Shown: positions 10,941 to 34,690 of the stretch, in pieces
How the letters are laid out: every line of letters begins with the position of its first letter
Position numbering within the stretch: position 1 is the first letter of the stretch
NCBI GenBank assembly: GCA_024637275.1
Contig: JAGXFS010000122.1
Location: forward strand, 1 to 49,563
DNA length: 49,563 nucleotides
Reading direction: 5' to 3'
Source of the DNA: Acidimicrobiia bacterium
Lineage (GTDB): Bacteria > Actinomycetota > Acidimicrobiia > Spongiisociales > JAENVV01
Made by a program: the position numbers and the translations under genes
Notes under the pieces: generated by a model
What the model was told of the DNA's origin: nothing
The model's database searches: none
What the model saw: the letters and a program-made list of their open reading frames with translations, nothing else

Positions 10941-12308
10941 TTACGCCAGGAGTTGTTTAGACCACGAGGTGTGGCGATTGCGCAGTTCGTCGCATTCAAG
11001 ACCCACCACCTCTCCCCGTTCCACGACCACCCGACCATGAACAACCGACCAATCCACCCCGGACCGACTTCCAAACACCAGACCGGCGACCGGGTCAGCG
11101 AAGCCGGAATCTCCGAGCTGGCTTGTGACGTCGATGGCGATGAGGTCGCAGGCTTTGCCGGCCTCGAGCGATCCGAGGTCGTTTCTCCCGAGGACTTCGG
11201 CGCTTCCCCGCGTCGCCATCCGCAGCGCTTCCCTCGCTGACATGAGTGGACCACCCTCCCCCACGCCAGGTGCTACGGCGAGGCGAGCAAGCAGCATCGC
11301 CTGACGGACCTCCGCCAGCAGATTCGAGCTGTCATTCGAGGCGCTGCCGTCAACTCCCAGACCCACCGGGACACCCTGTTGACGGTATCTGGCAATCGGG
11401 GCGATCCCCGAAGCGAGCCGCATGTTGGACGTCGGGCAATGGGCGACTCCGGTTTTGGTGCGGGCCATTCGCTCCGACTCGTCGGCCGAGATGTGCACGC
11501 CGTGGGCGAACCACACATCGTCGCCGAGCCAATCGAGCTGTTCGGCATACTCAACCGGTCGGGCGTCGAATCGTTCGAGGCAGAAAGCTTCCTCATCGAC
11601 GGTTTCGGCGATGTGCGTATGGAGCCTCACGCCAAGTTCCCTGGCGAGAGCGGCCGACTCTTTCATCAGCTCACCGGTTACCGAGAACGGCGAGGCAGGA
11701 GCGAGAACCACCTGTCGCATCGAGCCAGGATCTGGATCGTGCCAGCGAGTCACAGCATCCTGGCTCGCCCGGAGAATCGATTCGTGAGACTCGACGATGG
11801 AATCGGGGGGAAGCCCACCCGATGATTCACCGAGGCTCATCGATCCCCGCGAGGCCACGAATCTGATCGGCACCTGCTTGGCTCCCTCGAACTGATCATC
11901 GATCGAGGACCCGTTCGGCCAGAGGTATTGGTGATCAAACGCAGTCGTACAACCAGATAGGGCTAATTCAGCAAGTCCGAGGGTGGTCGCATCCCGCACG
12001 CTGTCAGGAGTCAGCCGGGACCACAGCGGGTATAGAGCCACCAGCCACGTGAACAGGTCTGCATCCTGGGCTTCCGGAATCGCCCTGGTGAGGGTCTGAT
12101 AGAGGTGATGATGCGTGTTGATCAGACCGGGCATCACCACCATGCCGTCGGCGTCAATGACCACGTCTGCGGTACTCGGTAAGTCCGACGACTTGCCGAC
12201 CTGGGTGATCCAGCCGTCTTCGGCCAGAAGGCTGCCCCCGGCGATCTCGGTGCCGCCGTCATCCATCGTGACGAGGGCGAGGGCATTACGAATCAGGAGG
12301 CTGCTCAC
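10941..12308 (-). CDS. Amidohydrolase, 8-oxoguanine deaminase / ATZ-TRZ family
   Basis: A 455-residue zinc amidohydrolase that deaminates a heterocyclic ring. The metal site reads PGLINTHHHLYQTLTRAIP (His66-68), with later ligands in RLHTHIAETVDE, WFAHGVHIS and GLGVDGSASNDS. The beta-sandwich is complete at both ends, unlike the SsnA-like protein at 23 kb. The His-rich motif followed by QTLTRA resembles 8-oxoguanine deaminase, but guanine, isoguanine or triazine deaminases are close relatives. Its start overlaps the end of the xanthine dehydrogenase large-subunit gene by 4 bp. It is the last gene of the nucleobase operon, which supports a purine substrate. Confidence 0.8.
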   Translation of the reverse strand: MSSLLIRNALALVTMDDGGTEIAGGSLLAEDGWITQVGKSSDLPSTADVVIDADGMVVMPGLINTHHHLYQTLTRAIPEAQDADLFTWLVALYPLWSRLTPDSVRDATTLGLAELALSGCTTAFDHQYLWPNGSSIDDQFEGAKQVPIRFVASRGSMSLGESSGGLPPDSIVESHESILRASQDAVTRWHDPDPGSMRQVVLAPASPFSVTGELMKESAALARELGVRLHTHIAETVDEEAFCLERFDARPVEYAEQLDWLGDDVWFAHGVHISADESERMARTKTGVAHCPTSNMRLASGIAPIARYRQQGVPVGLGVDGSASNDSSNLLAEVRQAMLLARLAVAPGVGEGGPLMSAREALRMATRGSAEVLGRNDLGSLEAGKACDLIAIDVTSQLGDSGFADPVAGLVFGSRSGVDWSVVHGRVVVERGEVVGLECDELRNRHTSWSKQLLA

Positions 12309-14533
12309 CGCGAAAGTCCCTCCAGGACCCGCGATGGCGTGAGTGGGAAGCTGTCAAACCAGACGCCGGTGGCGTCGTGCAGCGCGGCAATCACCGCCGC
12401 CGCATACGGGAGGTATGGCATCTCGGCCATACCCCGAGCGGCAAAGGGGCCAAGCGGATCGCCGTACTCGCCGATGACGGTATCCACCTGGCGGGGGATG
12501 TCGCCGATGCCCGGGATCAGGTATTGCGATAGGCGGGGATTGGTGATCCTCCCCTCGTCACTCACCAACAACTCGGACAAGGTGTACCCGTGGGCTTGAA
12601 CGATGGCACCCTCGGATTGGGTGATGACGAGCATCGGATTGATCGCTTTGCCAACGTCTACTGCGCTCACTACCCGATCGATGCGGATGTGTCCGGTCTC
12701 GACATCGACCGACAAATCAACCGCCTGGGCGACATATCCATATGAGAAGTTGGGCACCGCCGGACCGCCCTGAGGATCAAGCATCTCCGTGGGCGGCGGG
12801 ACATATCGGAAGTCGCCAACCGCCGGCCGATCTCCGTTCATCCATGACTTCTCGGCTTCTTCGGCTGCGCCGAGAATCGAATTGCCCGCCATAAAGGTCA
12901 TCCGCGAAGCCGAGACCGAACCCGAATCGCCGGTGGTGGCCGTATCTGAGAACACTGCCTCCACCGCTGATACATCCATCCCGAGGGCTTCGGCCGTCAT
13001 CTGGATGAGGGCGGTGTGGGTTCCCTGACCCACCTCGGCGGCCGAATGAAAGAGGGTGGCCGAAGTGGGAGATTCGCCATCTCCGTGCAGCTCGATACGT
13101 GCCTCGCATCGCTCCGGGAACCCGAAACTAAAGCCGACGTTCTTGAAAGCGCACGCGAACCCGCGGCCATGTTTCGTGGCCCGGTCGGACCCAGCCAAGG
13201 ATCGAAATGCTTTCACGGGCTCGTAGCTGGCTGGCTCGTCCGCCCAGCTGGCCGAAGCCGCACAATCGTCTACGACTTCTCGGATCGATACGCCCCGGGG
13301 AAGTGGCGTATGGGTGGCGCCGAGGTCGCCTTCACCGATGAGATTGCGCCGCCGCAACTCGACAGGATCCATGCCAAGGGCTTCGGCCAGTTTGTTCATC
13401 TGAGATTCGGAAACGAACGTACCTTGAGGCCCTCCAAACCCGCGGAAGGCTCCGCCGGGTATCGACGTCGTGTAGACGGCATGGCTGTCAACCCGGATGT
13501 TCGGGAGCAAATACGGGCCGGCCAGGGTCATATGTAGGTTGCCGAGCACCTTGTTCGAGGTGTAGTTGTACGAGCCGGCATCGAGGTAGGCATCGGCCTC
13601 GACTGCGACGATCTTGCCGTCGGCGGTCGCCCCCCAACGAGTAGTGACCTGGGCCCGGTGCCGCTTGTGGTGACCAACAATCGATTCTTCTCGGGACCAT
13701 TGCGTGCGAATCGAACGTCGCTCGCCAAGTGCGGCGCACTTTTGGACCGCCAGAGCCAGAACAATCTGCAAACTCATGTCCTCGCGTCCGCCGAACGCTC
13801 CGCCGATAGCCGGATAGATGATCCGAATCTGATCAGCAGGCACACCGAGTGCGTGAGCAATCTGCTCCTGGTCCTCATGGGTCCACTGGCCACCGATCTC
13901 GACCGTCAGCCGACCTTCGTCGTCCACATAGGCGACGGCCGCCTCTGGCTGGAGGTAGGCGTGTTCTTGGTAGGGCAGCTCGTACGTGCCTTCGACTACA
14001 ACTTCGGCCTGCGCCCATCCGTCTTCCATGTTGCCTTTACGAAAGACGTACTCGTAATAGGCGTTGGTGGGTTTTCCGTTTTCGGGATGAATCAACGGAG
14101 CGTCCGGCGCCAAAGCGGCATCGACGTCGCTGGCGAGCGGTAACTGTTCCCATTCGACTTCGATGAGGTCTGCGGCCTGGCGAGCAATGGCGTCGGTTTC
14201 GGCAACGACGACGGCAATATGATCGGCTTCCCACCTGCTCACGTCCGAACGAACCTCACTGCGGCCGGTTCCATCGATGCCGACCAGCACTGGCTGGTCG
14301 AACATAGTCAAGCCGTATTCGTTGAGCGGCACATCGGCTGCGGTGACGATGGTTATGACCCCGTCCAGCGCTGTGGCCTTGGAGGTATCCATCGACGTCA
14401 TCCGAGCATGGGGCTGATCGGAGAAGACGACAACTGCAGACAGCATCTCGGTCGCCCGTATGTCCCCGGGGTAGATGGCTGCTCCGGTGACTTTGCCTTC
14501 GGCATCGGGGCGTTTGAGTGACTCGCCGATCAT
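12305..14533 (-). CDS. Xanthine dehydrogenase family, molybdopterin-binding subunit
   Basis: A 742-residue large subunit that hydroxylates purines (hypoxanthine/xanthine) or related heterocycles at a molybdenum centre. Cofactor-contact motifs seen are AIGGAFGGREDMS, GGAFRGFGGPQG and AAEVGQGTHTALIQM. Near the C-terminus, FAARGMAEMPYLPYAAAV has the catalytic glutamate position (GMAE) where classical enzymes have GVGE. ATG 14533 gives an ATGA overlap with the preceding FAD/2Fe-2S gene. The open frame extends 16 codons upstream, but the family start MIGESLKRPDAEGKVTG favours 14533. The operon context supports purine oxidation; aldehyde or other heterocycle oxidation is not excluded. Confidence 0.9.
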   Translation of the reverse strand: MIGESLKRPDAEGKVTGAAIYPGDIRATEMLSAVVVFSDQPHARMTSMDTSKATALDGVITIVTAADVPLNEYGLTMFDQPVLVGIDGTGRSEVRSDVSRWEADHIAVVVAETDAIARQAADLIEVEWEQLPLASDVDAALAPDAPLIHPENGKPTNAYYEYVFRKGNMEDGWAQAEVVVEGTYELPYQEHAYLQPEAAVAYVDDEGRLTVEIGGQWTHEDQEQIAHALGVPADQIRIIYPAIGGAFGGREDMSLQIVLALAVQKCAALGERRSIRTQWSREESIVGHHKRHRAQVTTRWGATADGKIVAVEADAYLDAGSYNYTSNKVLGNLHMTLAGPYLLPNIRVDSHAVYTTSIPGGAFRGFGGPQGTFVSESQMNKLAEALGMDPVELRRRNLIGEGDLGATHTPLPRGVSIREVVDDCAASASWADEPASYEPVKAFRSLAGSDRATKHGRGFACAFKNVGFSFGFPERCEARIELHGDGESPTSATLFHSAAEVGQGTHTALIQMTAEALGMDVSAVEAVFSDTATTGDSGSVSASRMTFMAGNSILGAAEEAEKSWMNGDRPAVGDFRYVPPPTEMLDPQGGPAVPNFSYGYVAQAVDLSVDVETGHIRIDRVVSAVDVGKAINPMLVITQSEGAIVQAHGYTLSELLVSDEGRITNPRLSQYLIPGIGDIPRQVDTVIGEYGDPLGPFAARGMAEMPYLPYAAAVIAALHDATGVWFDSFPLTPSRVLEGLSR

Positions 14534-15927
14534 TGTCCGGCCGCCACAACCGCGTCGATGATCTTGTAGTACCCGGTACAACGACAGAGATTGCCTGCCA
14601 AGCCTTCGACGACCGCATCGGCGTCAGGGGTGGAAACTTCGTCGAGTAGCGATGCTCCGGCGACGATAAAACCCGGAATGCAGTACCCACACTGCACGGC
14701 AAATTTGTCGATGAACGCTTGTTGTACGGGGTGGAGATCACCCTTGGCGATCCCTTCGACCGTCACCACCGACGCGCCTCCCGCCGAGACTGCTGGTACC
14801 AGGCAGGACATGACCGCACTGCCATTGAATTGAACCGTGCATGCTCCGCACTCGCCTTCCGCGCACCCTTCCTTCGTACCAGTCAACGAGGTACCGATCA
14901 GCGGCCCAGCGACGTCGCGCAGCCAGTCAAGCAAGGTAAGTCCTGCGCCTCCGGCCACTTCGACCTCGTGTCCGTTGACCGTGGCCGATCCGCCTCCCGG
15001 ACCGTAGGCCGATCCGCTAGCGCCAAGCAAGATCGGTGGTCGGTGTTCGGCCGGCGCTGACCGCAGAGACTGCAAACCTCGCTCGACGATCACCCGAACC
15101 GCCTCCGAACGGTAGGTTGCCGTCGCTCGTACATCGTCGATGGGGGTAACGGACGACACTGCCGCCACCGCAGCTGCGCCAATCGCCTCGTCGCTGAGCG
15201 GTTGTCCGATCAAACCCTCAACCGGGGTCTCGACAATCGTCGTGGCTACCGAACCCAGGGCGATCTTGGCGGACGACACCAGGTCGCCGTCAGTGGCCAC
15301 CACCATGGCAGCATGAACAACCGAAATCGCCTGCGCAGCTCGCAGTCCGGCCTTGACGAACACCCCCCGTTCGTTTTCGGCGAGAGTGCGGAACGTTATG
15401 GAGGTGATGAGTTCGTCGGGCATGCGAAGACTACGTCGGACCCCGGTATGGAACTCCTGGAGGGTCACGGTTCGCTCTCCCCGTACCGATCGCAACGTCA
15501 GCTTTGCGTCCAGCACCCTCAACGCAGAAATCGTGTCGTTGGCGGGACTGGCGGTGGCGATGTTGCCGACTACCGTTGCTCGATTGCGCAACTGGGGCGA
15601 GCCAATCTCAAAGCAGGCTTCGGCCAACGGGCGAGCGACTTCCCACAGCTTCGGTGAAGCCACGATCTGATTGTGGGTCACCAACATCCCGATCGTGACG
15701 CGCGTTTGGCCGATCTTAATCTGCCCGCACCCGGCGACTGCGGATAGATCAATGAGTACTTTGACGCCGACATGTTGACGGTGGGCGAATTCGAGAATGA
15801 GATCAGTTCCACCGGCGATGAGGCGTGCCTTGTCGCCGTACTCGCCTAGCAACGTAACCGTTTCATCGACAGTCTTAGGACGCAACACCCGGTTCGGAAG
15901 CGGTCCACGCCGCTGGACTTCATGCAT
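14530..15927 (-). CDS. Xanthine dehydrogenase FAD-binding / 2Fe-2S fusion subunit
   Basis: A 465-residue fusion of the two small electron-transfer subunits of a molybdenum hydroxylase. Residues 1-290 are the FAD domain (AGGTDLILE at 38-46, TVVGNIATASPANDT at 118-132). A linker of about 25 residues follows, then the double 2Fe-2S domain: Cys355, 360, 363 and 375 for the plant-type cluster, and QCGYC plus LCRC (Cys413, 416, 448, 450) for the second. The order, FAD first and iron-sulfur last, is the reverse of eukaryotic XDH. ATG 15927 overlaps the upstream deaminase stop by 8 bp. It should pass electrons from the neighbouring molybdenum subunit to FAD and NAD+. Confidence 0.9.
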   Translation of the reverse strand: MHEVQRRGPLPNRVLRPKTVDETVTLLGEYGDKARLIAGGTDLILEFAHRQHVGVKVLIDLSAVAGCGQIKIGQTRVTIGMLVTHNQIVASPKLWEVARPLAEACFEIGSPQLRNRATVVGNIATASPANDTISALRVLDAKLTLRSVRGERTVTLQEFHTGVRRSLRMPDELITSITFRTLAENERGVFVKAGLRAAQAISVVHAAMVVATDGDLVSSAKIALGSVATTIVETPVEGLIGQPLSDEAIGAAAVAAVSSVTPIDDVRATATYRSEAVRVIVERGLQSLRSAPAEHRPPILLGASGSAYGPGGGSATVNGHEVEVAGGAGLTLLDWLRDVAGPLIGTSLTGTKEGCAEGECGACTVQFNGSAVMSCLVPAVSAGGASVVTVEGIAKGDLHPVQQAFIDKFAVQCGYCIPGFIVAGASLLDEVSTPDADAVVEGLAGNLCRCTGYYKIIDAVVAAGQ

Positions 15928-16477
15928 CACTGCGACCGTTGTAGATAAGAGCGCCCGAGACCGCGTACATGTCCAGTACGGCGGCGGCTTCCTCACGCAT
16001 CACGTCGACCTCAACGGCAATCCCACGGGATCTCAGGGCGTCCTGCCAGTCGGCGACCTTGGGACCCTCGTCAAAACCGATGGAGCGAGCATCCTCATCC
16101 CGAGCGCCCGTGACCAGCTTTCTGACCCCGGACCACACGGTGGCTCCCATACAGAGAGCACAAGGTTCGGTCGACGCCACAAGTTCCATGGCGGGGAGGC
16201 CATCACCGCCGAGGTCGAAGACTCCGAGTCGCTGGTTGGCCAGGCCGATGGCAGTCGTTTCGGCATGGGCGAACGAAATCGCGGTCGGAACTACCCGGTT
16301 CACTCCCGGGGCGACCAGATTCCCGGTAACGGATTCAAAGATGGCTGCGCCAAACGGGCCACCGGTTTGCTCGACGACATTGCGCCGGGCCAGTTCGATG
16401 ACGAACGGCATCCGATCCTTTGGTTCAAACGAGACGCCCGGCGACGCCATGTCGTCGATCCAGTCCGGAACATCCAT
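15920..16477 (-). CDS. Cytidine-deaminase-fold guanine deaminase
   Basis: A 185-residue zinc-dependent deaminase of the CDA/GuaD fold. The zinc site is complete: HAE (His71, Glu73) in SFAHAETTAIGLANQRLG, and PCALC (Cys106, Cys109) in ASTEPCALCMGATVWSGV. The N-terminal helix and GGPFGAAIF strand are as in bacterial guanine deaminases and also tRNA adenosine deaminase TadA; context inside a nucleobase operon favours guanine to xanthine. GTG 16501 would overlap the permease stop, but ATG 16477 has GGAAGG six bases upstream and is preferred. Its product xanthine would feed the next two genes. Confidence 0.85.
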   Translation of the reverse strand: MDVPDWIDDMASPGVSFEPKDRMPFVIELARRNVVEQTGGPFGAAIFESVTGNLVAPGVNRVVPTAISFAHAETTAIGLANQRLGVFDLGGDGLPAMELVASTEPCALCMGATVWSGVRKLVTGARDEDARSIGFDEGPKVADWQDALRSRGIAVEVDVMREEAAAVLDMYAVSGALIYNGRSDA

Positions 16478-16497: not shown

Positions 16498-17454
16498 TCA
16501 CGTCCGTTCCTCCCTGGCGTACGGTATCCCGAGCGCGGCCGGGGCTCCGAGGCGGCTACGCAACGATGATGCGGATGACACAAGCACCAGCACCACAATG
16601 GTCATGATGTACGGCGCCATGTTGAGCAGGTTCGGCGAAATGGTCGTACCCGAAGCCTGTAATCGGAATTGAATCGCATTCACTCCCCCAAATAGCAGCG
16701 CACCAATCAAGGCTCTCGCCGGACGCCAACTCGCGAAGATTACAAGGGCGACGGCGATCCATCCACGACCTCCGGTGAGGTTCTCCGACCAACCGGGCGT
16801 ATAGGCGAGCGATAGGTGCGCTCCCCCAAGGCCGGCCAATGCCCCGCCGACCATGGTGTAGATGTAGCGGTACCGCAAGACGGGAATTCCCATCGCTTCG
16901 ACCGTGGCCGGGCTTTCTCCCATGGCACGGAGTTGTTGGCCGGGCGAAGTGCGATAGATATAGAACGAAACGAGCGGAATAAACAGATACATCGAATACA
17001 CGACGAGGTCTTTCGTAAAGAGCGCCTCGCCGACGACGGGCAGTGAGCTAAGTCCGGGTATCGCAACTTCCCGAAAACGCGGGCCTTGCAGACCAACCAG
17101 CGGACCGTTATTCGGGCCAAGGCGCTCGCCGATAAAGCTGGCCAGGCCGGTCCCCGCCAGCGTGAGCGCCAAACCGGAAACGATCTGATCGGCTCGCAAG
17201 GTAATCGTCACAAAAGCGTGCAGCAGTGCCATCAGTGCACCAACCGCCATCGCCACCAGGACGCCGATCGTCAACGACCCAGAATGAAAGGCGGCTGCGA
17301 ACCCGGTCACCGCTCCCATGATCATCATTCCCTCAACGCCCAGATTGAGAATTCCGGAGCGTTCGGTGATCGCTTCGCCAATCGTCGCATAGGTCAACGA
17401 CGTACCGGCAAATATGGCAATTCCGAGGATGGAGGCGATCAGGTCCGCGCTCAT
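16498..17454 (-). CDS. BMP-type nucleoside ABC transporter permease (second)
   Basis: A 318-residue polytopic membrane protein of the branched-chain/simple-sugar permease family, the shorter of two permeases. Typical features are the N-terminal FAGTSLTYATIGEAITERSGILNLGVEGMMIMGAV and the cytoplasmic coupling stretch QLRAMGESPATVEAMGIPVLRYRY. The GVEG motif after the second helix is characteristic of YufQ/NupQ-type nucleoside permeases. It overlaps the first permease by 4 bp. With the ATPase and lipoprotein it should import nucleosides or nucleobases across the cytoplasmic membrane. Confidence 0.93.
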   Translation of the reverse strand: MSADLIASILGIAIFAGTSLTYATIGEAITERSGILNLGVEGMMIMGAVTGFAAAFHSGSLTIGVLVAMAVGALMALLHAFVTITLRADQIVSGLALTLAGTGLASFIGERLGPNNGPLVGLQGPRFREVAIPGLSSLPVVGEALFTKDLVVYSMYLFIPLVSFYIYRTSPGQQLRAMGESPATVEAMGIPVLRYRYIYTMVGGALAGLGGAHLSLAYTPGWSENLTGGRGWIAVALVIFASWRPARALIGALLFGGVNAIQFRLQASGTTISPNLLNMAPYIMTIVVLVLVSSASSLRSRLGAPAALGIPYAREERT

Positions 17455-18563
17455 GCTGTGACCTCAGCATGTTGGCGGACGACCCGGATCCGATAGCGAC
17501 TGAAGATGTCTCCGCCGAGCACAAAGAACAGCATGACGCCTTGCACAACTTGGGCGACAGAAGCGGGCAGACCCATCGTCATCTGGATTTGATCTCCGCC
17601 AACGAACACGGCGGCGAGCAGGATCGACACCAGGACGATCGCCCAAGGTTGCAGCTTGGCCACCCAGGCGACGATGATCGCCGTAAAGCCGTTATTGGCC
17701 GAGAGACCTTGCTGAAGCTTGTGCGAGATGCCGGCAACTTCACCCATGCCGGCCAGTCCCGCCAGACCGCCTGACACGAGCATGACCAGAATGATGTTGC
17801 GAAACATCGATACACCGGCAAACCGAGCAGCCTCCGGGTTATCGCCAAGAAGTCGAATCTCGTACCCTGCCCGGGTTTTGGAAAGCAGCACCCAAACAAA
17901 AACGGCGGCCAGAAGCCCGATGAAGATCGCCAGGTTCACTCTCGTATTGAAGAACCTCGGCAACCAGGTGTATTCGGGGAACAGTGCCGAGCCGGGAAAA
18001 CCGAAACCCGCCGGATCTTTCCATGACGTCGTGAACAGCTGGGAGTACCACAGGATCGCGATGTAGTTCAGCATGAGCGTCACAATGATCTCGCTGACAT
18101 TGAGATAGGCCTTGAGGAGTGCCGGAATCAATGCCCACAACGCCCCGGCGAGAATGGCCGCACCTCCCATGAGCAGGCCATAGACCACCAAGTTCTGAGG
18201 AATGCCGGGTGCGGCATCCGGCAGAAAGAGCGCCACCCCCGATGCGGCAATGCCACCCATGACCAACTGGCCCTCGGCGCCGATGTTCCAAAACTTCATC
18301 TTGAACGCCACCGCTACCGCCAGACCGGTCAAGATGAGTGGCGTGGCCCGAACCAACGTCTCTGAGACACTGTAGAACTCGCCGCCGAAGATATCCCCGA
18401 ACGCCCCATTCCACATGGCTACATACGTGTCGATCGGATTAGCCCCGAATGCGAGAAGAAGGAGTCCGCTCGCAACCAGCGCCAACAACACCGAGACGAC
18501 TGGCACCACCCAGTTGAGGTATCGGGGTGGGTCGAGACGGCGTTCGAGGCGAAACCGAATCAT
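17451..18563 (-). CDS. BMP-type nucleoside ABC transporter permease (first)
   Basis: A 370-residue permease with an extended N-terminus compared with its partner, as in YufP/NupP-type proteins. Motifs are SVSETLVRATPLILTGLAVAVAFKMKFWNIGAEGQLVMGGI near residues 65-105 and the coupling helix EIRLLGDNPEAARFAGVSM. Several long hydrophobic segments are evident. It overlaps the ATPase gene and the second permease by 4 bp each, so the whole transporter is translationally coupled. Confidence 0.93.
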   Translation of the reverse strand: MIRFRLERRLDPPRYLNWVVPVVSVLLALVASGLLLLAFGANPIDTYVAMWNGAFGDIFGGEFYSVSETLVRATPLILTGLAVAVAFKMKFWNIGAEGQLVMGGIAASGVALFLPDAAPGIPQNLVVYGLLMGGAAILAGALWALIPALLKAYLNVSEIIVTLMLNYIAILWYSQLFTTSWKDPAGFGFPGSALFPEYTWLPRFFNTRVNLAIFIGLLAAVFVWVLLSKTRAGYEIRLLGDNPEAARFAGVSMFRNIILVMLVSGGLAGLAGMGEVAGISHKLQQGLSANNGFTAIIVAWVAKLQPWAIVLVSILLAAVFVGGDQIQMTMGLPASVAQVVQGVMLFFVLGGDIFSRYRIRVVRQHAEVTA

Positions 18564-20122
18564 TGGGTAACCGACTCGCCGGCCATCATGAGACCAACCC
18601 GTTCCTTCGTTGCCTGGACGGCATCGACAACGCCCATATTCTCGCCGCTGTGAAGCACCATGACCCGATCGGAGAGGACCAGAAGCTCGTCGAGGTCCTC
18701 CGAAATCAGAATGATTGCCGCCCCGCGCAGTCTCTCGGCCAGCAGGGCCTCACGGACGGCTTCGATCGCACCGACGTCAAGCCCCCGAGTCGGGTAGGCG
18801 GCCACGATAAGCGGGGTGAGGCCACTCTTGGCTCCTGCGTCGATCTCGCGAGCCAGGATCGCCTTCTGTTGATTGCCGCCCGACAGATTTCTGGCTGGCG
18901 TCGCCGATGAAGGCGTGGAAACGGCGAACTTTTTGATGTACTCGTCGGACAAGGTCGTAATGGCCCGCTTACGAAGAAACCGACCTTTTGAGATCGGAGC
19001 CGACTTATACCGCTTCATGATGAAGTTGTCGGTAAGGGGCAGGCCGCCCGCCAAACCCATGCCAAGCCGATCGGCCGGGACATGCGACACTCCCCGTCGT
19101 ATGAACCCTCGGGGTGATATCCCGGTCACATCGTCACCGTGGAGGCTGATCCGTCCGGCGGTCAGGGACCGCAACCCGGTAATACATTCGGCTAATTCGA
19201 ACTGTCCATTCCCGGCTACGCCTGCCACCCCGAGAATTTCACCCGATCGTACCTCGAACGAGACCGCGGCCACTGCTGGCAATCCGCGGCTGTCGTTGGC
19301 CGAGACGTTGTCGCAGCTCAGAACAACCGCTCCGGGGTCATGGTCTTCGCGGTCGGAGTCGAACAGGACCTCGCGGCCGACCATAAGTTTGGCCAGACCA
19401 GCTTTGTCGGCATCTTTGGTGTCGATGGTTGCCACGTTGCGGCCCGCCCTAAGCACCGTGACTCGATCGGAAAACGCCAGCACCTCGTCCAACTTGTGGG
19501 AGATGAAGATCACCGCCCGACCATCGTTGGCGAGGTGACGCAAGGTGACGCCAAGTTCGGCGCTCTCTTGAGGAGTGAGGACCGCGGTTGGTTCATCGAG
19601 AATGAGAATCTCGGCTCCGCGATACAACAGTTTGAGGATTTCGACCCGCTGCAATAATCCAACCGACAACTGCCAGATTTCGGCAGTCGGGTCAACCTTG
19701 AGTCCGAATCGTTCACCGAGTTCGGCTACCTCGGCTTCGACCTTCTTCATATTCGGGACGAAGCCCACCCCCTCGACACCGAGAATGACGTTTTCGGCAA
19801 CGGTCTGGTTCGCGACGAGTTTGAAGTGTTGATAGACCATGCCGATACCGAGGCGAATCGCATCGCGGGGCGAGTGGATATCAACCTGGTGAAGCGGTTC
19901 CCCACCGGTGGCAAGCTCGATGTGGCCCTCGGTGGGACGATAGAGACCGACGAGGCAACTCATCAGGGTGGATTTTCCAGCCCCGTTTTCTCCCAACAAC
20001 GCATGGATCTCACCGCGTCGCACGGTGAGATCCACGTTTTCATTTGCCAGAACTCCCGGAAACCGCTTAGTGAGGCCGCGTATCGCGACGGCGACCTCGC
20101 CTCCCTCCGGTTCCGGTGTCAT
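18560..20122 (-). CDS. BMP-type nucleoside ABC transporter ATPase (double)
   Basis: A 520-residue protein with two ABC domains. The first has an intact Walker A (LLGENGAGKSTLM), signature LSVGLLQRVEIL and Walker B ILILDEPTAVLTPQ. The second has a degenerate Walker A (GVAGNGQFELAE), a good signature LSGGNQQKAILARE, and a Walker B region without the usual Asp-Glu (PLIVAAYPTRGLDVGA). This asymmetry is normal for sugar and nucleoside importers of this class. It starts 9 bp after the stop of the lipoprotein gene. It energises import through the two permeases downstream. Confidence 0.95.
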   Translation of the reverse strand: MTPEPEGGEVAVAIRGLTKRFPGVLANENVDLTVRRGEIHALLGENGAGKSTLMSCLVGLYRPTEGHIELATGGEPLHQVDIHSPRDAIRLGIGMVYQHFKLVANQTVAENVILGVEGVGFVPNMKKVEAEVAELGERFGLKVDPTAEIWQLSVGLLQRVEILKLLYRGAEILILDEPTAVLTPQESAELGVTLRHLANDGRAVIFISHKLDEVLAFSDRVTVLRAGRNVATIDTKDADKAGLAKLMVGREVLFDSDREDHDPGAVVLSCDNVSANDSRGLPAVAAVSFEVRSGEILGVAGVAGNGQFELAECITGLRSLTAGRISLHGDDVTGISPRGFIRRGVSHVPADRLGMGLAGGLPLTDNFIMKRYKSAPISKGRFLRKRAITTLSDEYIKKFAVSTPSSATPARNLSGGNQQKAILAREIDAGAKSGLTPLIVAAYPTRGLDVGAIEAVREALLAERLRGAAIILISEDLDELLVLSDRVMVLHSGENMGVVDAVQATKERVGLMMAGESVTQ

Positions 20123-20131
20123 GGCTGGTCC

Positions 20132-21268
20132 TTATTCCTCGGGTATTTCGCCAATTACACCTTGGACGAAGAAGAACATCCCGAGCATGTCACCGTCCTC
20201 CATGCAGGCACCTGCGGCAACCTGCTCAGTCCCGGCCTGGTCGACGATCGGACCACAGAAGGGATCGAACTCGCCCGCGATCATCTCGGCCTTCTTCGCC
20301 TCGACAAGGTCGATCGTGTCCTGCGTAACCGAAGGACCGTACGACGCCAGGTCAACAAGGCCGGTTTCGAGACCACCCCAGAATGACTCGTCTCCGTCAT
20401 AAGTGCCGGCCCGTACTTCCTCAACGATCGGAACGTACTTGTTGGCCCAGTTCCAAATGGGAGCGCTCAACAGGGAATCCCCGACGAAGGATCGACTGTC
20501 CGTGTTGTAACCAATCGAGTATCCACCGCGGTCGGCGGCGGCTTTCTGGGGTTCGGTGGTGTCCTGATGCTGGGCGATAACATCGGCCCCGGCATCGAGC
20601 AGCGCTTCGGCGGCTTCCTTCTCCTCGGGCGGGCCGAACCAGGTATTGGTCCAAACAACGCGCACTTCGGCATCCGGATTCACAGCCTGAACGCCGAGGG
20701 TGAAAGCGTTGATACCGCGAATCACCTCAGGAATCGGGAAGGCGGCCACGTAGCCGATAATGTTCGACTCCGTCTGAGCTCCGGCGATCATGCCGGTCAG
20801 GTAGCGAGGCTGATACATCCGGCCAAAGACGTTCGACATGTTCGGCGCATTTTTGAAACCAGAGATGTGCACGAACTGAATGTCGGGGAACTCACCGGCA
20901 ACCGCCAGCGTCGGGTCCATGTAGCCGAACGATGTGGTGATGATGATGTCATTGCCGGCCTGGGCAAACTCGCGGATTACCCGCTCGGCATCCGGGCCTT
21001 CCTCGACGTTCTCGATAAAGGTGGTTTCGACACCGTCGAGCGCTTCGACCGCCAGCCGACCCTGCTCATGCGAATACGTCCAACCTAGATCTCCGATTGG
21101 TGCCACATAGACAAAAGCCACCTTGGTGATGTCATCTGTTGCGACGGTATCGGTCGGAGCTTGTGTGTCGTCCGTGCCCGCCACTGTTGTGGTGGCGGTG
21201 TCGCCCCCGCAGGCCGCTAGTGCCAGTAACAGCGCCAGTAGTAAGGCGCTTAGCCGTCCAGTTCTCAC
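20132..21268 (-). CDS. BMP-family nucleoside-binding lipoprotein
   Basis: A 378-residue extracytoplasmic substrate-binding protein. From GTG 21268 it has a short basic start (VRTGR), a hydrophobic stretch and the lipobox LAAC with Cys20, followed by a Thr-rich linker. The start is chosen because GGAGGA lies seven bases upstream and the signal peptide then has normal length; the frame is open 12 codons further. The core has VAFVYVAPIGDLGWTYSHEQGR and IRGINAFTLGVQAVNPDAEVRVVWTNTW, matching BMP/PnrA proteins that bind purine nucleosides. First gene of the transporter-deaminase-xanthine dehydrogenase operon. Confidence 0.93.
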   Translation of the reverse strand: MRTGRLSALLLALLLALAACGGDTATTTVAGTDDTQAPTDTVATDDITKVAFVYVAPIGDLGWTYSHEQGRLAVEALDGVETTFIENVEEGPDAERVIREFAQAGNDIIITTSFGYMDPTLAVAGEFPDIQFVHISGFKNAPNMSNVFGRMYQPRYLTGMIAGAQTESNIIGYVAAFPIPEVIRGINAFTLGVQAVNPDAEVRVVWTNTWFGPPEEKEAAEALLDAGADVIAQHQDTTEPQKAAADRGGYSIGYNTDSRSFVGDSLLSAPIWNWANKYVPIVEEVRAGTYDGDESFWGGLETGLVDLASYGPSVTQDTIDLVEAKKAEMIAGEFDPFCGPIVDQAGTEQVAAGACMEDGDMLGMFFFVQGVIGEIPEE

Positions 21269-21319
21269 GATATTTCCTCCAGTTCGGAATGCATCAACTT
21301 CCAATTTTTCGCATCTGCG

Positions 21320-21377: not shown

Positions 21378-23150
21378 TCATTTGAGCGGAATCGGCCACC
21401 CTTCGTCAGCATGAAAGATCTCGGCGAGTCGCGTCACGTCGGATTCATGGCCCTCGGACGCCGTAATGGTGAAGCCGCTACCCGATGGAGCTACCAGGAA
21501 ACCCTGGTCGACCGTGGCGGCGAATCGAGACGGATCGAGATAGATCTTCGGTTTGATCTGAGCAGGATCCCCAACCTCGGGACAAAAGACCATGCAGTTG
21601 CCGCACTCGTTGCACGCTTCGGCGAGCACGAAGTACTGCTGTCTTCCCGGCACATCCATCGATTTCGGAGTCGGGAGCCGGAAGAAGGCGTCATTGGGAC
21701 AAACAGTCACACAGAAATTGCAGGCGACGCACCCCCACATTTCGAGGTTGTGATCGACATGGCGGGGAAGTTTCTCGTTGCCGGTCAGGTGGTAGATCGA
21801 ATTGAGATCACCGCTCAGCATGGCCACCATATGCGCATGGGCGGCTCCGCGAAATCCGGCTGCCTTGGCCACGTTCCACTCGTGAGTTCGCCAACTCTGG
21901 AGGGAGTAGGCACCAACGGCGCGCATGTCATCGGCCAACCGTGACAACATCGGGGCAATTCGCCCGTAGCCCCCCGGTTTGAGGAGATCTGAGCATACGG
22001 TGGTGGGACGAACTCCCATCCCAATGGCCTCTGAGAGGTTCTCCTTTGTGATTCCGGCAGAAAAGCTCACCTGGACGTCACCATCGTGCCCTTCGACCAT
22101 GAAGGTGTTGGGAAGTGCCGAAATGAGTTCATCAAGCAAGGTGGTTGCCAGCACGTGCAGTGGCGCACCGGAGAGATACATCGGGTCGTCGCCAAGGAAG
22201 CCCTTGTGGTTTTCGACGACGAGCGTGTTTGTAAGTTTGACGCCAAAACGCCTGCCTCGAGCCTTTGCGTACGAGCGGAGCTCCTCAATCAGCGCGACGC
22301 CCCGATCGAATTGGAGGTCGTCGGTGAACGATTGCCGGTTCAACCGGATGTGTTCATAACCCAACTGCTGTTGGACGATCTCGCAGACCCGCCCGAACCC
22401 CAACAAGGTCGGATTGAGCTTGACGATGACGTCGAGGCCGTGATGGTCCATCAAGTACTTTGTGATGGACTCGATCTCGTCGGGTGGGCAGCCATGAAAC
22501 GTCGAGAGCGTAACCGTGTCGGCAACACGCGTCCCGAAATCAAGGTCGCGCATGGCACCAAACGCGTCGGGGATCAAGGGCCGCAGCCGCTCAATCTCAT
22601 CCGATGCGTCCAACATGGCGGTGATGAATCCTTCGACCTTGGGACTTGAAATCCCCGCCAGGTCGTAACCAACCGACATGTCAAAGACAAACGGTCCGGT
22701 GTCGCGACCCAGGTAGGGCCGAAGCGGTTCCCATCGTTTGAGAATTTCGATGATCATCCAGGCTTTGACGTACTCCTCGAGTGATTCGCCGATCTTCAGC
22801 TCTTGACTCCACTCGGTGTTGAATCCCACCGTCTCCATGTCGATGCACGGTCGGGCGATCTCCAGGTCATCGATGATCTGAACCGTCTTCAGCTCGAACA
22901 AGCGAGCTCCGGCCAACCACGACAGGACAATATTCTGAGCTAGCTGACTGTGGGGTCCGGCGGCCGGACCCACCGGCGTTGCTGCGGGCCGTCCCAGAAA
23001 CTCGAACGACAGATCGACATCGGGATCTGGTTTCCAATACCGGGCCGTTGGCAGGTCGTAGATCCGGTTGCGAGTCTCAAACTCCAAGGCGATCCGCCGC
23101 AGCAACACATCCAGCGGAAACGGGGTAAGTGGCGGGACGTCGTGGGCCAT
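21378..23150 (-). CDS. ygfK: YgfK-like iron-sulfur protein (short form)
   Basis: A 590-residue protein matching the N-terminal half of E. coli YgfK, the so-called putative selenate reductase subunit, whose gene set has been tied to anaerobic purine/urate breakdown. The first 470 residues form a dihydropyrimidine-dehydrogenase/DHOD-like barrel (PAATPVGPAAGPHSQLAQNI, then LFELKTVQIIDDLEI and DVIVKLNPTLLGFG). Two ferredoxin-type clusters follow: Cys474, 477, 480, 484 and Cys513, 516, 519, 523 (CNECGNCMVFCP). E. coli YgfK is about 1030 residues and continues with a GltD-like NAD(P)H/FAD oxidoreductase; that half is absent and no separate gene for it is seen. It lies 11 bp downstream of the ssnA-like gene and is probably the last gene of its operon. 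Confidence 0.85.
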   Translation of the reverse strand: MAHDVPPLTPFPLDVLLRRIALEFETRNRIYDLPTARYWKPDPDVDLSFEFLGRPAATPVGPAAGPHSQLAQNIVLSWLAGARLFELKTVQIIDDLEIARPCIDMETVGFNTEWSQELKIGESLEEYVKAWMIIEILKRWEPLRPYLGRDTGPFVFDMSVGYDLAGISSPKVEGFITAMLDASDEIERLRPLIPDAFGAMRDLDFGTRVADTVTLSTFHGCPPDEIESITKYLMDHHGLDVIVKLNPTLLGFGRVCEIVQQQLGYEHIRLNRQSFTDDLQFDRGVALIEELRSYAKARGRRFGVKLTNTLVVENHKGFLGDDPMYLSGAPLHVLATTLLDELISALPNTFMVEGHDGDVQVSFSAGITKENLSEAIGMGVRPTTVCSDLLKPGGYGRIAPMLSRLADDMRAVGAYSLQSWRTHEWNVAKAAGFRGAAHAHMVAMLSGDLNSIYHLTGNEKLPRHVDHNLEMWGCVACNFCVTVCPNDAFFRLPTPKSMDVPGRQQYFVLAEACNECGNCMVFCPEVGDPAQIKPKIYLDPSRFAATVDQGFLVAPSGSGFTITASEGHESDVTRLAEIFHADEGWPIPLK

Positions 23151-23161
23151 GAGTTCCTCTC

Positions 23162-24181
23162 CTAAAGCCGGGCGTGGAGTCGGGCAGCCTGTTCGGATGC
23201 CTTGGCGCGTATCTCGTCTGGATCAACCATGGTGGGGATGCCTGCTTCCAGAACTACCTGGCCATCGACCTCGACCCTAAGTGGTCGTACCCCTGAGGTG
23301 AAGGCGAGGTGCCACGGGTCCATGGGCTGGTACGACCAGGTAACCAGGTCTTCTTTTGCCTGGGGAAACAAGCTCCATCCGGTTTCCAACCAGTTCCAGG
23401 CCGCATCAGGAGAAGCCGTCACGTCCACCGAACGGTGCAGAACGTAGGCCAGTCGGAAAGACTCGATCACGTTGGCGCCAATTCCGTCGGTCCCCAGTGC
23501 AACCGGGTTCTCGAACCGGATCGGATTGGCGTACCCAACCGCGTTGTTTAGGTTCGACATGGGATTGTGCAGGATCGTTCCACGCAATTCGTGCGAGTCA
23601 GGAAGATGAACGCAATGAGCTAGGAGCCAGTCATCTCTCGTGAGGCCGACCAGCTTGGCCGGTGCCTCATGGTCTTCGGGCCCTTCACAGACATGGATGT
23701 GAACGCCGACGCCCAACTCGTCGGCCAGGCCGGCCGCCGCTTCGAGGGTCTCGCGTGAACAAGTAAAAGCCGCGTGAATCCCAACCAGGCCGTTACCGCC
23801 TTCGGAAATGAATCGACGGTTCTCCTCCAAGCCACGTTTCGCCCCATCTGGTCCATGGCGATCCGTAATCCCATAGGCGGTTTTGACCCGCACCCCCACT
23901 TCGGCACACGCCTTGGCAATGACCGAAAGGCTGCCCTCGATGGCGTTTGGCGACTCGTGATGATCGATGATGGCGGTGGTGCCCGATTCGAGTGCTTCCA
24001 GCGCCGCGAGTTTGGCGGACCACTCGATCATGTCAAGGTCAAGAGCGGTGTCCAGGCGCCACCACACCTGCTCGAGGATCTCCTGAAAAGTGGTCGCCGT
24101 CTTGGGAGGAGCCGGCATCCCTCTCGCTAGTGACGAATAGAGGTGGTGATGGGCACAGACCAGGCCAGGCGTTGTATCCAC
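23162..24181 (-). CDS. ssnA: SsnA-like amidohydrolase lacking the N-terminal strand region
   Basis: A 339-residue metal-dependent amidohydrolase resembling SsnA, a partner of YgfK and XdhD in E. coli. Metal ligands are present: CAHHHLYSS (His11-13), GVHIHVCEGPEDH, LLAHCVHLP and ALGTDGIGANV. E. coli SsnA has about 440 residues; here the first 55 or so, which usually build half of the small beta-sandwich, are missing. The GTG at 24181 is immediately preceded by an in-frame TAG, and the xdhD-like stop is 23 bp upstream, so no longer start is possible. The C-terminal strands (RVEVDGQVVLEAGIPTMVD) remain. It may be a functional trimmed form or a 5'-damaged gene. Confidence 0.8.
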   Translation of the reverse strand: MDTTPGLVCAHHHLYSSLARGMPAPPKTATTFQEILEQVWWRLDTALDLDMIEWSAKLAALEALESGTTAIIDHHESPNAIEGSLSVIAKACAEVGVRVKTAYGITDRHGPDGAKRGLEENRRFISEGGNGLVGIHAAFTCSRETLEAAAGLADELGVGVHIHVCEGPEDHEAPAKLVGLTRDDWLLAHCVHLPDSHELRGTILHNPMSNLNNAVGYANPIRFENPVALGTDGIGANVIESFRLAYVLHRSVDVTASPDAAWNWLETGWSLFPQAKEDLVTWSYQPMDPWHLAFTSGVRPLRVEVDGQVVLEAGIPTMVDPDEIRAKASEQAARLHARL

Positions 24182-24204: not shown

Positions 24205-26802
24205 TCATCCGACGTCCAGAGGCGAGTGGGTATTGAATGGCAACTGAGTTCGCCTGGTGCCATCAACCTCGAACAGTGCTTGAGCCACCGCACCAGCGGT
24301 AGGCACGAGACCGATTTCTCCCACGCCTTTGATCCCATACGGCGAACGTGGCTGCGGTGCCTCGACAAGAATGACCTCGATCTCGGGCACATCCTTCGGC
24401 CGCAAGATGCCAAGACTTCGCAGCGTCATGTTGGTCGGGCGGCCGTTTTCGTCCGTTGGGAAGTCCTCCGTGAGGGCATACCCGAGCCCCATGTGGACCG
24501 ATCCCTCGACCTGCCCCTTGCAGAGCAGCGGGTTTACCGCCCGACCTACATCGTGGGCGGCCACCACCTTTTCGATCTTGCCCGTTTCCTTGTCAGCAAT
24601 CACGATCTGGGCGGCGTAGCCAAACGCAGAATGCAGTATCGGGTTTTCGAGGCCATCGGACAGTTTGTTCGTCCAGTCGACCCGATATTCACCTTCGTAG
24701 TCGACCCCGACCTTGCAGCCATCGGCCACCGCGGCCTGACAGGCAGCTTGAACCGACCCGGCTCCCATCAGGGTGCCGCGCGAGCCGGTGGTCTGGCCGG
24801 CTCCGAGCTCACGGGACGTATCAACAACGACCCGGATCCGACCGGCATCGATCCCCAACTCTTCGGATGCCACCTGGAGCGCGACCGTGTGAACCCCCTG
24901 GCCCATCTCGGTCCAGCAATGACGAACCTCGACTACGCCGTCTTCTTCGAAGCGTACGACCGCCCGGGCGATTTCCAGGAACCCGTTACCCAAACCAGAG
25001 TTTTTGAGAGCCAGTCCGAGACCAACCGCCTTGCCGGCTTGGCGGGCCGCGTCGTAGGGAGCCTTGATGGCATCGAGACACATGCGGACTCCCGCCGAAC
25101 CGTCATCCATGATTTGACCGGGGCCCCACACGACCCCCGGTTCAATGGCGTTGCGACTGCGCATCTCCCAACCGGTGATCCCCACCTGTTCAGCGAGCCG
25201 ATCCATGACGCCTTCCATGGCGAATTGTGCCTGGTTGGCGCCGAATCCCCGGAATGCTCCACAGACGGAGTTGTTGGTCCGAACCGCCGTCGCCTTCACA
25301 TCGATGTTGGGAACCACGTAGGGACCACTGGCATGGCCGGCGGCCCGCTCAAGCACCTTCATCCCGACGGATGCATACGGACCGGAGTCGCCGATCATGC
25401 GAACCTTCAACCCGACCAGCTTGCCATCGGCGTCGCATCCGGCCCGGGTTTCGATCCGGATTGGATGACGTTTCGCATGCATAAAGAAACTCTGCTCGCG
25501 GGTAATCGTGCATTTAACCGGGCGCCCTGACAGATGAGCGGCCAGCGCCGTCTGCGCCTGATTGGACATGTCTTCTTTGCCGCCGAACGCTCCCCCGTTC
25601 GAAACCAGCTGCACGGTGATCGTGGCCTGTTCAACGCCGAGAACCGCCGCTATCTGATCACGGTCGTCCCAGACGCCCTGCCCACCCGAGTAGACATGCA
25701 GCCCGGCCTCCGTAGGCACGGCCAAGGTCGATTCGGGTTCGAGGAATGCATGCTCGATCCGTTGGGTCACGAAAACTTCGTCGACCGTATAGGCCGCTCC
25801 GGCCAGCGCTTGCTCAGCGTCGCCTCGTGCGTACTCGGAGATCGACAGCTGATTGCCATCCAACTCCCACACGGCGTCATCGGACTCAAGTGCGGTCAAC
25901 GGATCTGTGATGGGCGTCAGGACGTCGTACGAGACCTCAATGAGCTCGGTAGCTTCCCGGGCGGTCTGCTGATCCTCTGCCACGACGATCGCCAGGACAT
26001 CACCGAGATAGGACGTGCGACCTCCTACCGGAATGAAGACCGGCCAGTCTTTGTAGATGATCCCGACCCGCAGATCGCCTGGCACGTCGGCGGCCGTATA
26101 CACGGCAATTACGCCGGGCACCGCCAAAGCGGGCGCAGTGTCGATCCCGAGAATGTCAGCGCGTGCGTGATCGGTCAAACGGAGAGCGCCGTGGACCATC
26201 CCGGGCACCCGCAAGTCATCTACGTAGCCACGATCTCCCAGGGCCAGAGCCTCGGCTTCGTACTTGACGCTCGAGGTTCCAATGCCTCCCTCGACATGAA
26301 CCTCGGGGATTTCCTCACCGGAAGCAAGCAGTTCGATGGCATCAACGATCCCGACATACCCGGTGCACCGACAAAGATGGGCACCGAGCCGACCCTCAAT
26401 GGTGCTCCGATCCAGGTCTTTGCCCTTCTGATCGATGAGCGCCTTGGCTCGAACCAGAATCCCTGGTGTACAAAAGCCACACTGAAGAGCACCCTTGGCG
26501 GCAAACGCGCGAGCCAGTCGATCTCGTTCAGCTTCGTCAAACCCCTCGAGGGTAAGGACCTCCTTGCCAGCCGCTTTCTCCATCGACACGAGACAGGCTT
26601 GGATGGCCTTGCCATCGAGCAGAATGGTGCAACAACCACACTGACCCTGCGGAGCACAGCCATCTTTGGCAGATGTCACGCCCACTTCTTCGCGCAGCGC
26701 CGCCAATAGGTGCGGGTGGTACATCCCGACCTCGGTCGTCTGGCCATTGACGACAAGGGTGGTCGTGTCGGTGGTTCGAACATACACCGGGGTTGCCGTC
26801 AT
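24205..26802 (-). CDS. xdhD: XdhD-type molybdenum hydroxylase (2Fe-2S plus Mo domains)
   Basis: An 865-residue fusion of a 2Fe-2S domain and a molybdopterin domain, the architecture of E. coli XdhD and of hydroxylases called selenium-dependent xanthine dehydrogenases. Residues 1-160 hold the iron-sulfur ligands: DGCAPQGQCGCC (Cys49, 55, 58, with one residue more than the usual spacing), QCGFCTPG and LCRCTG. The molybdenum domain has NGGAFGGKEDMS, CGAFRGFGANQAQ, WTEMGQGVHTVALQ and the catalytic GIKGVGEIGLVPTAGAVAQ. No FAD-binding subunit gene adjoins it, unlike E. coli ygfM. ATG 26802 overlaps the D-carbamoylase stop by 4 bp. Selenium dependence of the cofactor cannot be read from sequence. 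Confidence 0.9.
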   Translation of the reverse strand: MTATPVYVRTTDTTTLVVNGQTTEVGMYHPHLLAALREEVGVTSAKDGCAPQGQCGCCTILLDGKAIQACLVSMEKAAGKEVLTLEGFDEAERDRLARAFAAKGALQCGFCTPGILVRAKALIDQKGKDLDRSTIEGRLGAHLCRCTGYVGIVDAIELLASGEEIPEVHVEGGIGTSSVKYEAEALALGDRGYVDDLRVPGMVHGALRLTDHARADILGIDTAPALAVPGVIAVYTAADVPGDLRVGIIYKDWPVFIPVGGRTSYLGDVLAIVVAEDQQTAREATELIEVSYDVLTPITDPLTALESDDAVWELDGNQLSISEYARGDAEQALAGAAYTVDEVFVTQRIEHAFLEPESTLAVPTEAGLHVYSGGQGVWDDRDQIAAVLGVEQATITVQLVSNGGAFGGKEDMSNQAQTALAAHLSGRPVKCTITREQSFFMHAKRHPIRIETRAGCDADGKLVGLKVRMIGDSGPYASVGMKVLERAAGHASGPYVVPNIDVKATAVRTNNSVCGAFRGFGANQAQFAMEGVMDRLAEQVGITGWEMRSRNAIEPGVVWGPGQIMDDGSAGVRMCLDAIKAPYDAARQAGKAVGLGLALKNSGLGNGFLEIARAVVRFEEDGVVEVRHCWTEMGQGVHTVALQVASEELGIDAGRIRVVVDTSRELGAGQTTGSRGTLMGAGSVQAACQAAVADGCKVGVDYEGEYRVDWTNKLSDGLENPILHSAFGYAAQIVIADKETGKIEKVVAAHDVGRAVNPLLCKGQVEGSVHMGLGYALTEDFPTDENGRPTNMTLRSLGILRPKDVPEIEVILVEAPQPRSPYGIKGVGEIGLVPTAGAVAQALFEVDGTRRTQLPFNTHSPLDVG

Positions 26803-33542: not shown

Positions 33543-34277
33543 CTAGGCCATGCGCACCCGTGGGTCCAAACGCCCGGCTGCGGTTCGGAGCGTTCCGTAA
33601 GCCTCGTTGTAGAGGGCACTGCCTGCCGAAATCCGTCGAACCCCTAAATCGAAAAGCTCCGATATGGACGGCCCACCCGTCATCGCCAGAACGTTGACGG
33701 GTGCTCCGGCCTCACGTACGACTCGACCGATGTCGGCAGGGACGGTCAACCCCGGCGCATACAGAACGTCGGCTCCCGCCAGGCGGTAACGGATAAGTCT
33801 CTCAAGCGTATCTTCGAGATCCTCCTGCCCGTAGAGATAGTTCTCCGCCCTGGCGGTAACCACAACGCCCGATGGCCCGGCAGCAGCACACACCCGGGCA
33901 ACCCGTTCGGTCGCTACTTCAATCGGCTCGATGGATCCGATCTGGGGGTCAAAGTCCTCTACCGATATCCCGGCCGCTCCGGCATCCACCAGCAGTTGGA
34001 CCGTCCGCTCGACGCCACCCGGGTCGTGCGGAAACATCTGTTCGCTGTCAACATTTAGGGGCACTGCGATGAACGAAGCGAGATCAGCTACGTGAGCAAC
34101 CAGTTCATCGCGCGTCACCTCTTGGTCCTTCTTGCCGATCGCCCGGCCGAATCCGGCGCTCGTCGTTGCCAACGCCTGAAAACCGAGCTCCTCAAGGACT
34201 CGAGCGGAGCCTCGATCCCACGGATTGGGCATCACAAAGCCCCCCTCAGCATGCATCCGTCTAAAGAGACTGACCAT
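33543..34277 (-). CDS. Isocitrate lyase / PEP mutase superfamily protein
   Basis: A 244-residue TIM-barrel protein. Visible landmarks are FVMPNPWDRGSARVLEELGF, TTSAGFGRAIGKKD, the metal-site region LNVDSEQMF, AGISVEDF, VVTARAENYLYG and ADVLYAPGLTVPADI. This is the short subfamily often annotated isocitrate lyase/phosphoenolpyruvate mutase family protein, which includes oxaloacetate decarboxylases and carboxyvinyl-phosphonate-type lyases; the exact reaction is unknown. ATG 34277 is chosen although the frame remains open to 34622, because the upstream part is antisense to the selenoprotein candidate. In this context it could cleave a C3-C4 acid, but that is speculation. Confidence 0.82.
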   Translation of the reverse strand: MVSLFRRMHAEGGFVMPNPWDRGSARVLEELGFQALATTSAGFGRAIGKKDQEVTRDELVAHVADLASFIAVPLNVDSEQMFPHDPGGVERTVQLLVDAGAAGISVEDFDPQIGSIEPIEVATERVARVCAAAGPSGVVVTARAENYLYGQEDLEDTLERLIRYRLAGADVLYAPGLTVPADIGRVVREAGAPVNVLAMTGGPSISELFDLGVRRISAGSALYNEAYGTLRTAAGRLDPRVRMA

Positions 34278-34322
34278 CGAACCACCCGGAGTAATCCTCG
34301 ACTGCCTAGTGTTGGCAATTGT

Positions 34323-34616
34323 ATGCACCTTGATGTCACCCCTGAAGCCGTCAAGCTCGTTCGTAAGAAGGGCGGGGTCATGGCCATCGACTTCATCCCG
34401 CCCATCGGTTGAGGCGGCACGTTGGAGGTGTCGGTCGACACCTATCTCAAAGGCAAAGACCTCAGCCCGTACCAGCAGCTGACCGTGGACGACGTCGAAC
34501 TCCACGTTTCTCCAGCCCTGTCGACCTGGGCCGATCGTGCCACCGTGGCCGTCAAGTCGAGCCTGCTCGGGAAGAAGCTCGAAGTCCTGGCAGACCACAA
34601 GCACCAGCCGACCTGA
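34323..34616 (+). CDS. Candidate selenoprotein, small HesB-like / CC-Se motif family, in-frame UGA
   Basis: A 97-residue reading frame from ATG 34323 to TGA 34614-34616 is interrupted only by TGA at 34410-34412 (codon 30). On both sides the frame reads like one small protein: MHLDVTPEAVKLVRKKGG, then MAIDFIPPIG, the UGA codon, GGTLEVSV, and further on VDDVELHVSPAL and GKKLEVLADH. The strand order and the reactive residue just before GG fit small HesB-like proteins in which a Cys pair or Cys/Sec occupies this place. A hairpin begins about 12 bases after the UGA (separate entry). If UGA is a real stop, only a 29-residue stub and an orphan downstream frame remain. It is the first visible sign that this organism may decode selenocysteine. 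Confidence 0.65.
34410..34449 (+). other. SECIS-like hairpin after the in-frame UGA
   Basis: After UGA 34410-34412, GGTGTC (34427-34432) pairs with GACACC (34437-34442) around the loop GGTC. An extra A-T pair extends it, and TTG (34422-34424) can pair with CAA (34447-34449) across small bulges. The apical GGUC and its distance of 20 bases from the UGA fit bacterial SECIS elements; the E. coli fdhF element also has GGUC in its loop. No selA, selB, selC or selD gene is in the window to confirm. Confidence 0.6.
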
Positions 34617-34690
34617 AGTCACTAATCCCGGTGCCCGGTGGGCATCTTTCGAAAACGCAGTCCCTCAAGCTCGCACACCTCACACCAACG

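Follow-up and report, generated by a model that had tools for sequence, protein, structure and literature searches.

A predicted actinobacterial selenoprotein with two distant selenocysteine codons and a fold resembling A-type iron-sulfur carriers

Prokaryotic selenoproteins have been sorted into 119 families, most of which carry one selenocysteine (Sec) residue and a few of which carry two or three (PMC13188914, a 2026 review). For the multi-Sec proteins (e.g., FrhD/VhuD, FTR, FmdB-like, and the UxxU metal-binding protein), the motifs that are given are short, i.e., CxxU, UxxU, CxU, and UxxT (PMC13188914). Families with one Sec include NF041239, with the motif CxxU, and the HesB-like family TIGR01911, with the motif UxGP (PMC13188914). 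The bacterial SECIS is modelled as a hairpin with a loop of 3–9 nt, a stem of 4–16 bp, a G in the first two loop positions, a distance of 16–37 nt from the UGA, and an MFE ≤ −7.5 (PMC13188914). We compare these systems, together with the A-type Fe-S carriers IscA and SufA, to a gene in a 49,563-nt stretch of DNA (hereafter, the window) from an Acidimicrobiia bacterium.

The gene occupies 34323–34625 on the forward strand and is 100 codons long, the 30th and the 98th being UGA, as supported by the frame itself, an alignment of 39 homologues, and an AlphaFold2 model. The original prediction described a frame that is open save for the TGA at codon 30 (34410–34412) and that ends at 34616; the first part stands, while the coding frame in fact reaches the TAA at 34623–34625. 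This UAA is taken as the true stop codon, with a stop found two or three codons past UGA98 in 16/16 distinct sequences with TGA at that position. We thus propose with high confidence that the gene encodes a 100-residue selenoprotein resembling the A-type carriers (IscA/SufA fold), containing Sec30 and Sec98, with one bacterial SECIS for each UGA and an end at UAA 34623. We infer that Sec is genuinely inserted at both positions: SelB with Sec-tRNA-Sec would read UGA30 and UGA98, SECIS1 would act from inside the coding frame, SECIS2 would start just past the UAA stop, and translation would terminate at UAA 34623. At the level of sequence, the evidence comprises the two UGAs, the exchange of Sec for Cys at each of them, the hairpin that follows each, the Sec machinery, and the predicted fold. 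An antisense ORF (window 33543–34622, reverse strand) overlaps the gene and belongs to the PEP-mutase family; as its PEP-mutase domain starts only at residue 120, the overlapping N-terminal part is probably non-coding.

The AlphaFold2 model of the 100-residue product, built with 39 homologues, has a mean pLDDT of 84.6, falling to 57 in the last ten residues. Its best nine PDB matches by Foldseek are all A-type or related Fe-S proteins, among them SufA (E 2.7e-4) and IscA (E 3.3e-4), and profile comparison with IscA, SufA, and a twelve-row A-type set gave E 1.9e-6, with Sec30 falling on IscA Cys35. In IscA, Cys35, Cys99, and Cys101 are the cluster-binding residues. A pairing of Sec98 with Cys99 and of His100 with Cys101 appears only in a forced global or full-length alignment and is of low confidence. 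The likeness to the A-type carriers IscA and SufA (PF01521) thus consists of the predicted fold, the distant profile similarity, and the alignment of Sec30 with IscA Cys35. The differences are that the window protein itself has no match to Pfam PF01521 (one of the 39 family members has one, at E 0.02) and that it has Sec-x-His where IscA has Cys-Gly-Cys. A PDB sequence search with the family profile returned no match. Among relatives assigned to family f9, members L057, L061, L066, L067, and L069 have Cys-rich tails (DDCC, SCNVC, RDCC) in place of C-x-H, i.e., another ligand arrangement.

The claim that this is a HesB-like/CC-Se-type protein was borne out, both by a match to NF041239 at E 7e-8 and by the predicted fold, which is of the HesB/IscA kind. 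NF041239, whose first predicted member came from Moorella thermoacetica, is a CC/Se motif family of (seleno)proteins; its profile is matched by the window protein over positions 1–88 of 91 with 32.4 bits, which lies under the curated cut-off of 40 bits, and 31 of the 39 family members match at E ≤ 0.01 (best 7.7e-10). A search of the source genome with NF041239 gave no match, but as the controls were likewise without one, this absence carries no information. Unlike NF041239, the window protein lacks CxxU (it reads IPPIGU, with Pro at position 27) and has an extra, C-terminal Sec. With the HesB-like selenoprotein TIGR01911 it shares a Sec at the first HesB/IscA Cys position and a HesB-like fold; however, it has no match to that profile at E ≤ 1 and carries a second Sec.

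Tentatively, the Sec30 and Sec98 selenolates, encoded on one short mRNA bearing two SECIS elements, may together with His100 replace the three thiolates of IscA. The protein would then bind or hand on a metal or Fe-S cluster via Sec30, Sec98, and His100. We favour such a carrier, binding a metal or Fe-S cluster through selenolates, while giving it about even odds with a selenol redox protein. The main alternative is a redox site made of Sec and Sec or of Sec and His. A considerable share of the probability, somewhat short of half, goes to the reading in which both Sec residues are real and the protein works in thiol/selenol redox chemistry, through a Sec30–Sec98 diselenide or a selenenyl-sulfide with a partner, and carries no metal or Fe-S cluster; most uncharacterised selenoproteins are indeed expected to be redox proteins (PMC13188914). 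Against this, the fold is that of the Fe-S carriers, and the conserved His two residues past Sec98 suits a ligand set, although neither point is decisive.

The carrier reading with selenolate ligands depends on the second UGA (34614–34616, forward strand), which the original prediction had taken as the stop. Here that view is revised: codon 98 is very probably a second Sec codon, as argued from its alignment with Cys, the kept tail, and a covarying hairpin. The UGA98 column corresponds to the C-terminal Cys of relatives that end in C-x-H-stop. In the window, UGA98 is followed by codons 99–100 (34617–34622, forward strand), which encode Ser-His, an x-H tail like the C-x-H tail of many relatives with Cys at position 98. 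All 16 distinct TGA98 sequences, which span the genus of the window and three other families of the same order, retain x-H(-G/D)-stop behind the UGA, where x is Ser, Thr, Arg, or Gln. On the best tree, the distribution of TGA98 takes three changes; a single origin is compatible with the well-supported branches.

Past the stop codon lies SECIS2 (34630–34646, forward strand; GGUGCCC-GGU-GGGCAUC), which agrees with the bacterial SECIS model in having a 3-nt loop that starts with GG and lies 20 nt after UGA98, a 7-bp stem, and a folding energy of −11.0 kcal/mol. When the longest uninterrupted stem with a G-loop was sought behind UGA98, 15 of the 16 TGA98 sequences gave a stem of 6–13 bp with its loop 17–22 nt from the UGA, with loops of GGUC (ten sequences), GGU and GUC (two each), and GUU (one). 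The exception, L031, counts against the hairpin: the search chose another stem, and the expected CUGGUACCC-GGU-GGGCGCCAG has one mismatch. Mean stem length was 7.4 bp for TGA98 sequences vs 4.1 bp for 21 Cys98 relatives (Mann-Whitney p 2.5e-6); in the latter, an equivalent of SECIS2 is absent, and the shorter stems are found at scattered places.

Since a stem located past the stop codon is free to vary, SECIS2 also yields clean covariation. Across nine sequences whose loop is GGUC, pairing holds for 95% of cells and each of the 7 pairs has both of its bases altered in at least one sequence, with a covariation score that was approached neither by shuffles nor by slid pairings; these nine were picked for equal loop length, and the result therefore concerns the stem only.

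Two other accounts of this region fare poorly. In the first, only UGA30 encodes Sec and UGA98 is a real stop, the order having lost its C-terminal Cys tail; UGA is a usual stop, and a 97-residue product would cover the whole conserved core, yet the survival of the x-H tail and its stop in every distinct sequence, on at least three separate branches, and the presence of a covarying hairpin at SECIS distance that is missing in Cys98 relatives make this account improbable. Still less probable is an intrinsic transcription terminator, for which the G+C-rich character of the hairpin and its place just past the gene end could be cited: there is no U-tract (over the 9 nt that follow, T runs reach at most 3 and usually 1–2), the GGU(C) loop is nearly fixed while the stem varies, and the hairpin is absent behind Cys98 genes. 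We thus retain UGA98 as a very probable Sec codon served by SECIS2.

At codon 30, the evidence extends over a broader set of sequences. A collection of genomes, together with 395 genomes from the class, yielded 38 distinct actinobacterial homologues with TGA at this position (34410–34412, forward strand), and TGC is found in L039, L041, L093, and L097, in agreement with the expectation that the column would hold Sec or Cys. The original prediction had also placed a hairpin near bacterial SECIS geometry after this UGA. Such a hairpin is present, and it fits the model summarised in PMC13188914: SECIS1 (34427–34442, forward strand; GGUGUC-GGUC-GACACC) lies inside the coding frame, with GGTGTC at 34427–34432, GGTC at 34433–34436, and GACACC at 34437–34442. 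It starts 14 nt past UGA30, has a 6-bp stem and a 4-nt loop that begins with GG 20 nt past the UGA; the folding energy of the 16-nt core is −8.1 kcal/mol. The SECIS element of E. coli fdhF has a bulged U; SECIS1, unlike it, has none, and this counts against the assignment.

The core of SECIS1 is identical in the TGA30 members and disrupted in the Cys30 members. Its codons GTG-TCG-GTC-GAC show zero synonymous change in 38/38 distinct TGA30 homologues, even though GTG, TCG, GTC, and GAC have background frequencies of 0.31, 0.29, 0.57, and 0.74, respectively, in the same genes, and for this reason we do not regard the hairpin as a product of chance. The P-values for this freezing assume independent sequences, an assumption that does not hold here, yet the constraint still far exceeds that on neighbouring codons. 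In the Cys30 forms, VSVDT becomes VAIDT, AAIDT, or IAFDT, such that protein and hairpin change together and SECIS1 is lost. That TGA30 might be a sequencing error or the mark of a pseudogene, a reading that would suit a lone TGA of this kind in a single draft assembly, is refuted by the recurrence of the same TGA among the homologues and has a negligible probability, given also a dN/dS of 0.07–0.09 past TGA30 against three congeners, i.e., purifying selection. Decoding of UGA30 as Sec, as first proposed, is instead supported by the homologues, by SECIS1, and by the presence of selA, selB, and selD.

These genes were found by profile search of the genome, in which selA and selB are adjacent on contig C80 with scores over their cut-offs, and selD, also over its cut-off, is present in two copies on contigs C58 and C51. 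Of the genes against which the proposal was to be checked (selA, selB, selC, and selD), tRNA-Sec (selC) was not found in the 90.6%-complete draft assembly, nor specifically on the contigs that carry selA/selB or selD, which counts against the proposal; it was found in three congeners. These three are among 13 of 16 family-positive genomes in which ARAGORN detected a tRNA-Sec with anticodon TCA. The neighbourhood of a congener's tRNA-Sec matches the draft only at query positions 2820–3091, where the match stops 5 bases short of the edge of contig C90; the tRNA-Sec of the source genome may accordingly lie in an assembly gap near that contig end, for which this match is suggestive and not proof. 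Across the class, a selA match occurs in 30/30 family-positive genomes (29 strong and one partial, the latter in a 72%-complete genome) and in 275 of 395 genomes overall, linking selA to the family at a hypergeometric p of ~1e-5 if kinship is ignored. The two selD copies (L029 on C58 and L030 on C51) are very similar to each other, consistent with duplication or with mixed strains in the assembly. SelD itself would be a selenoprotein, since both copies have an in-frame TGA at the Sec position, with a hairpin and a Sec-type context behind it. The genome also has a separate gene for an ordinary A-type Fe-S carrier (L106, C80:12511–12819), ~7 kb from selA/selB.

The surroundings of the gene within the window had likewise been linked to selenium, through neighbours of the ygfK/ssnA/xdhD type. 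The cluster of a selenium-dependent xanthine dehydrogenase is real, with window 24205–26802 (reverse strand) matching TIGR03311 at 833.1 bits, over the NCBIfam cut-off; the SsnA-like and YgfK-like ORFs beside it (23162–24181 and 21378–23150, also on the reverse strand) are shorter than their profiles and score below cut-off. However, family members do not share any conserved neighbour (no protein family recurred in more than 4 cases among 85 neighbouring proteins scanned), and the cluster is thus no evidence for the function of the selenoprotein. Elsewhere in the window, 12305–15996 and 16498–21304 (both on the reverse strand) hold a second xanthine dehydrogenase-type gene pair along with an ABC transporter like a putative B6 transporter family. 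Rfam gave no match across the window.

With the prokaryotic selenoproteins that contain two or three Sec residues, such as FrhD/VhuD and FTR, the window protein shares the presence of several Sec residues in one small protein. It differs from them in that its two are 68 residues apart, with one lying three residues from the C-terminus and having its SECIS past the stop. Among the open-licence papers searched, none was found to describe a member of this family with two Sec residues, nor such a form whose SECIS lies beyond the stop codon. Gene callers would end the protein at residue 29 or 97, and C-terminal tails of this type are missed as a result. Ultimately, the gene would extend the small set of prokaryotic proteins in which several selenocysteines are genetically encoded, here with the Sec residues distant in sequence, and SECIS2 would be a bacterial SECIS acting from beyond the terminating stop codon. 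If both Sec residues and the His bind metal, the protein would represent a selenolate counterpart of the Fe-S carriers.
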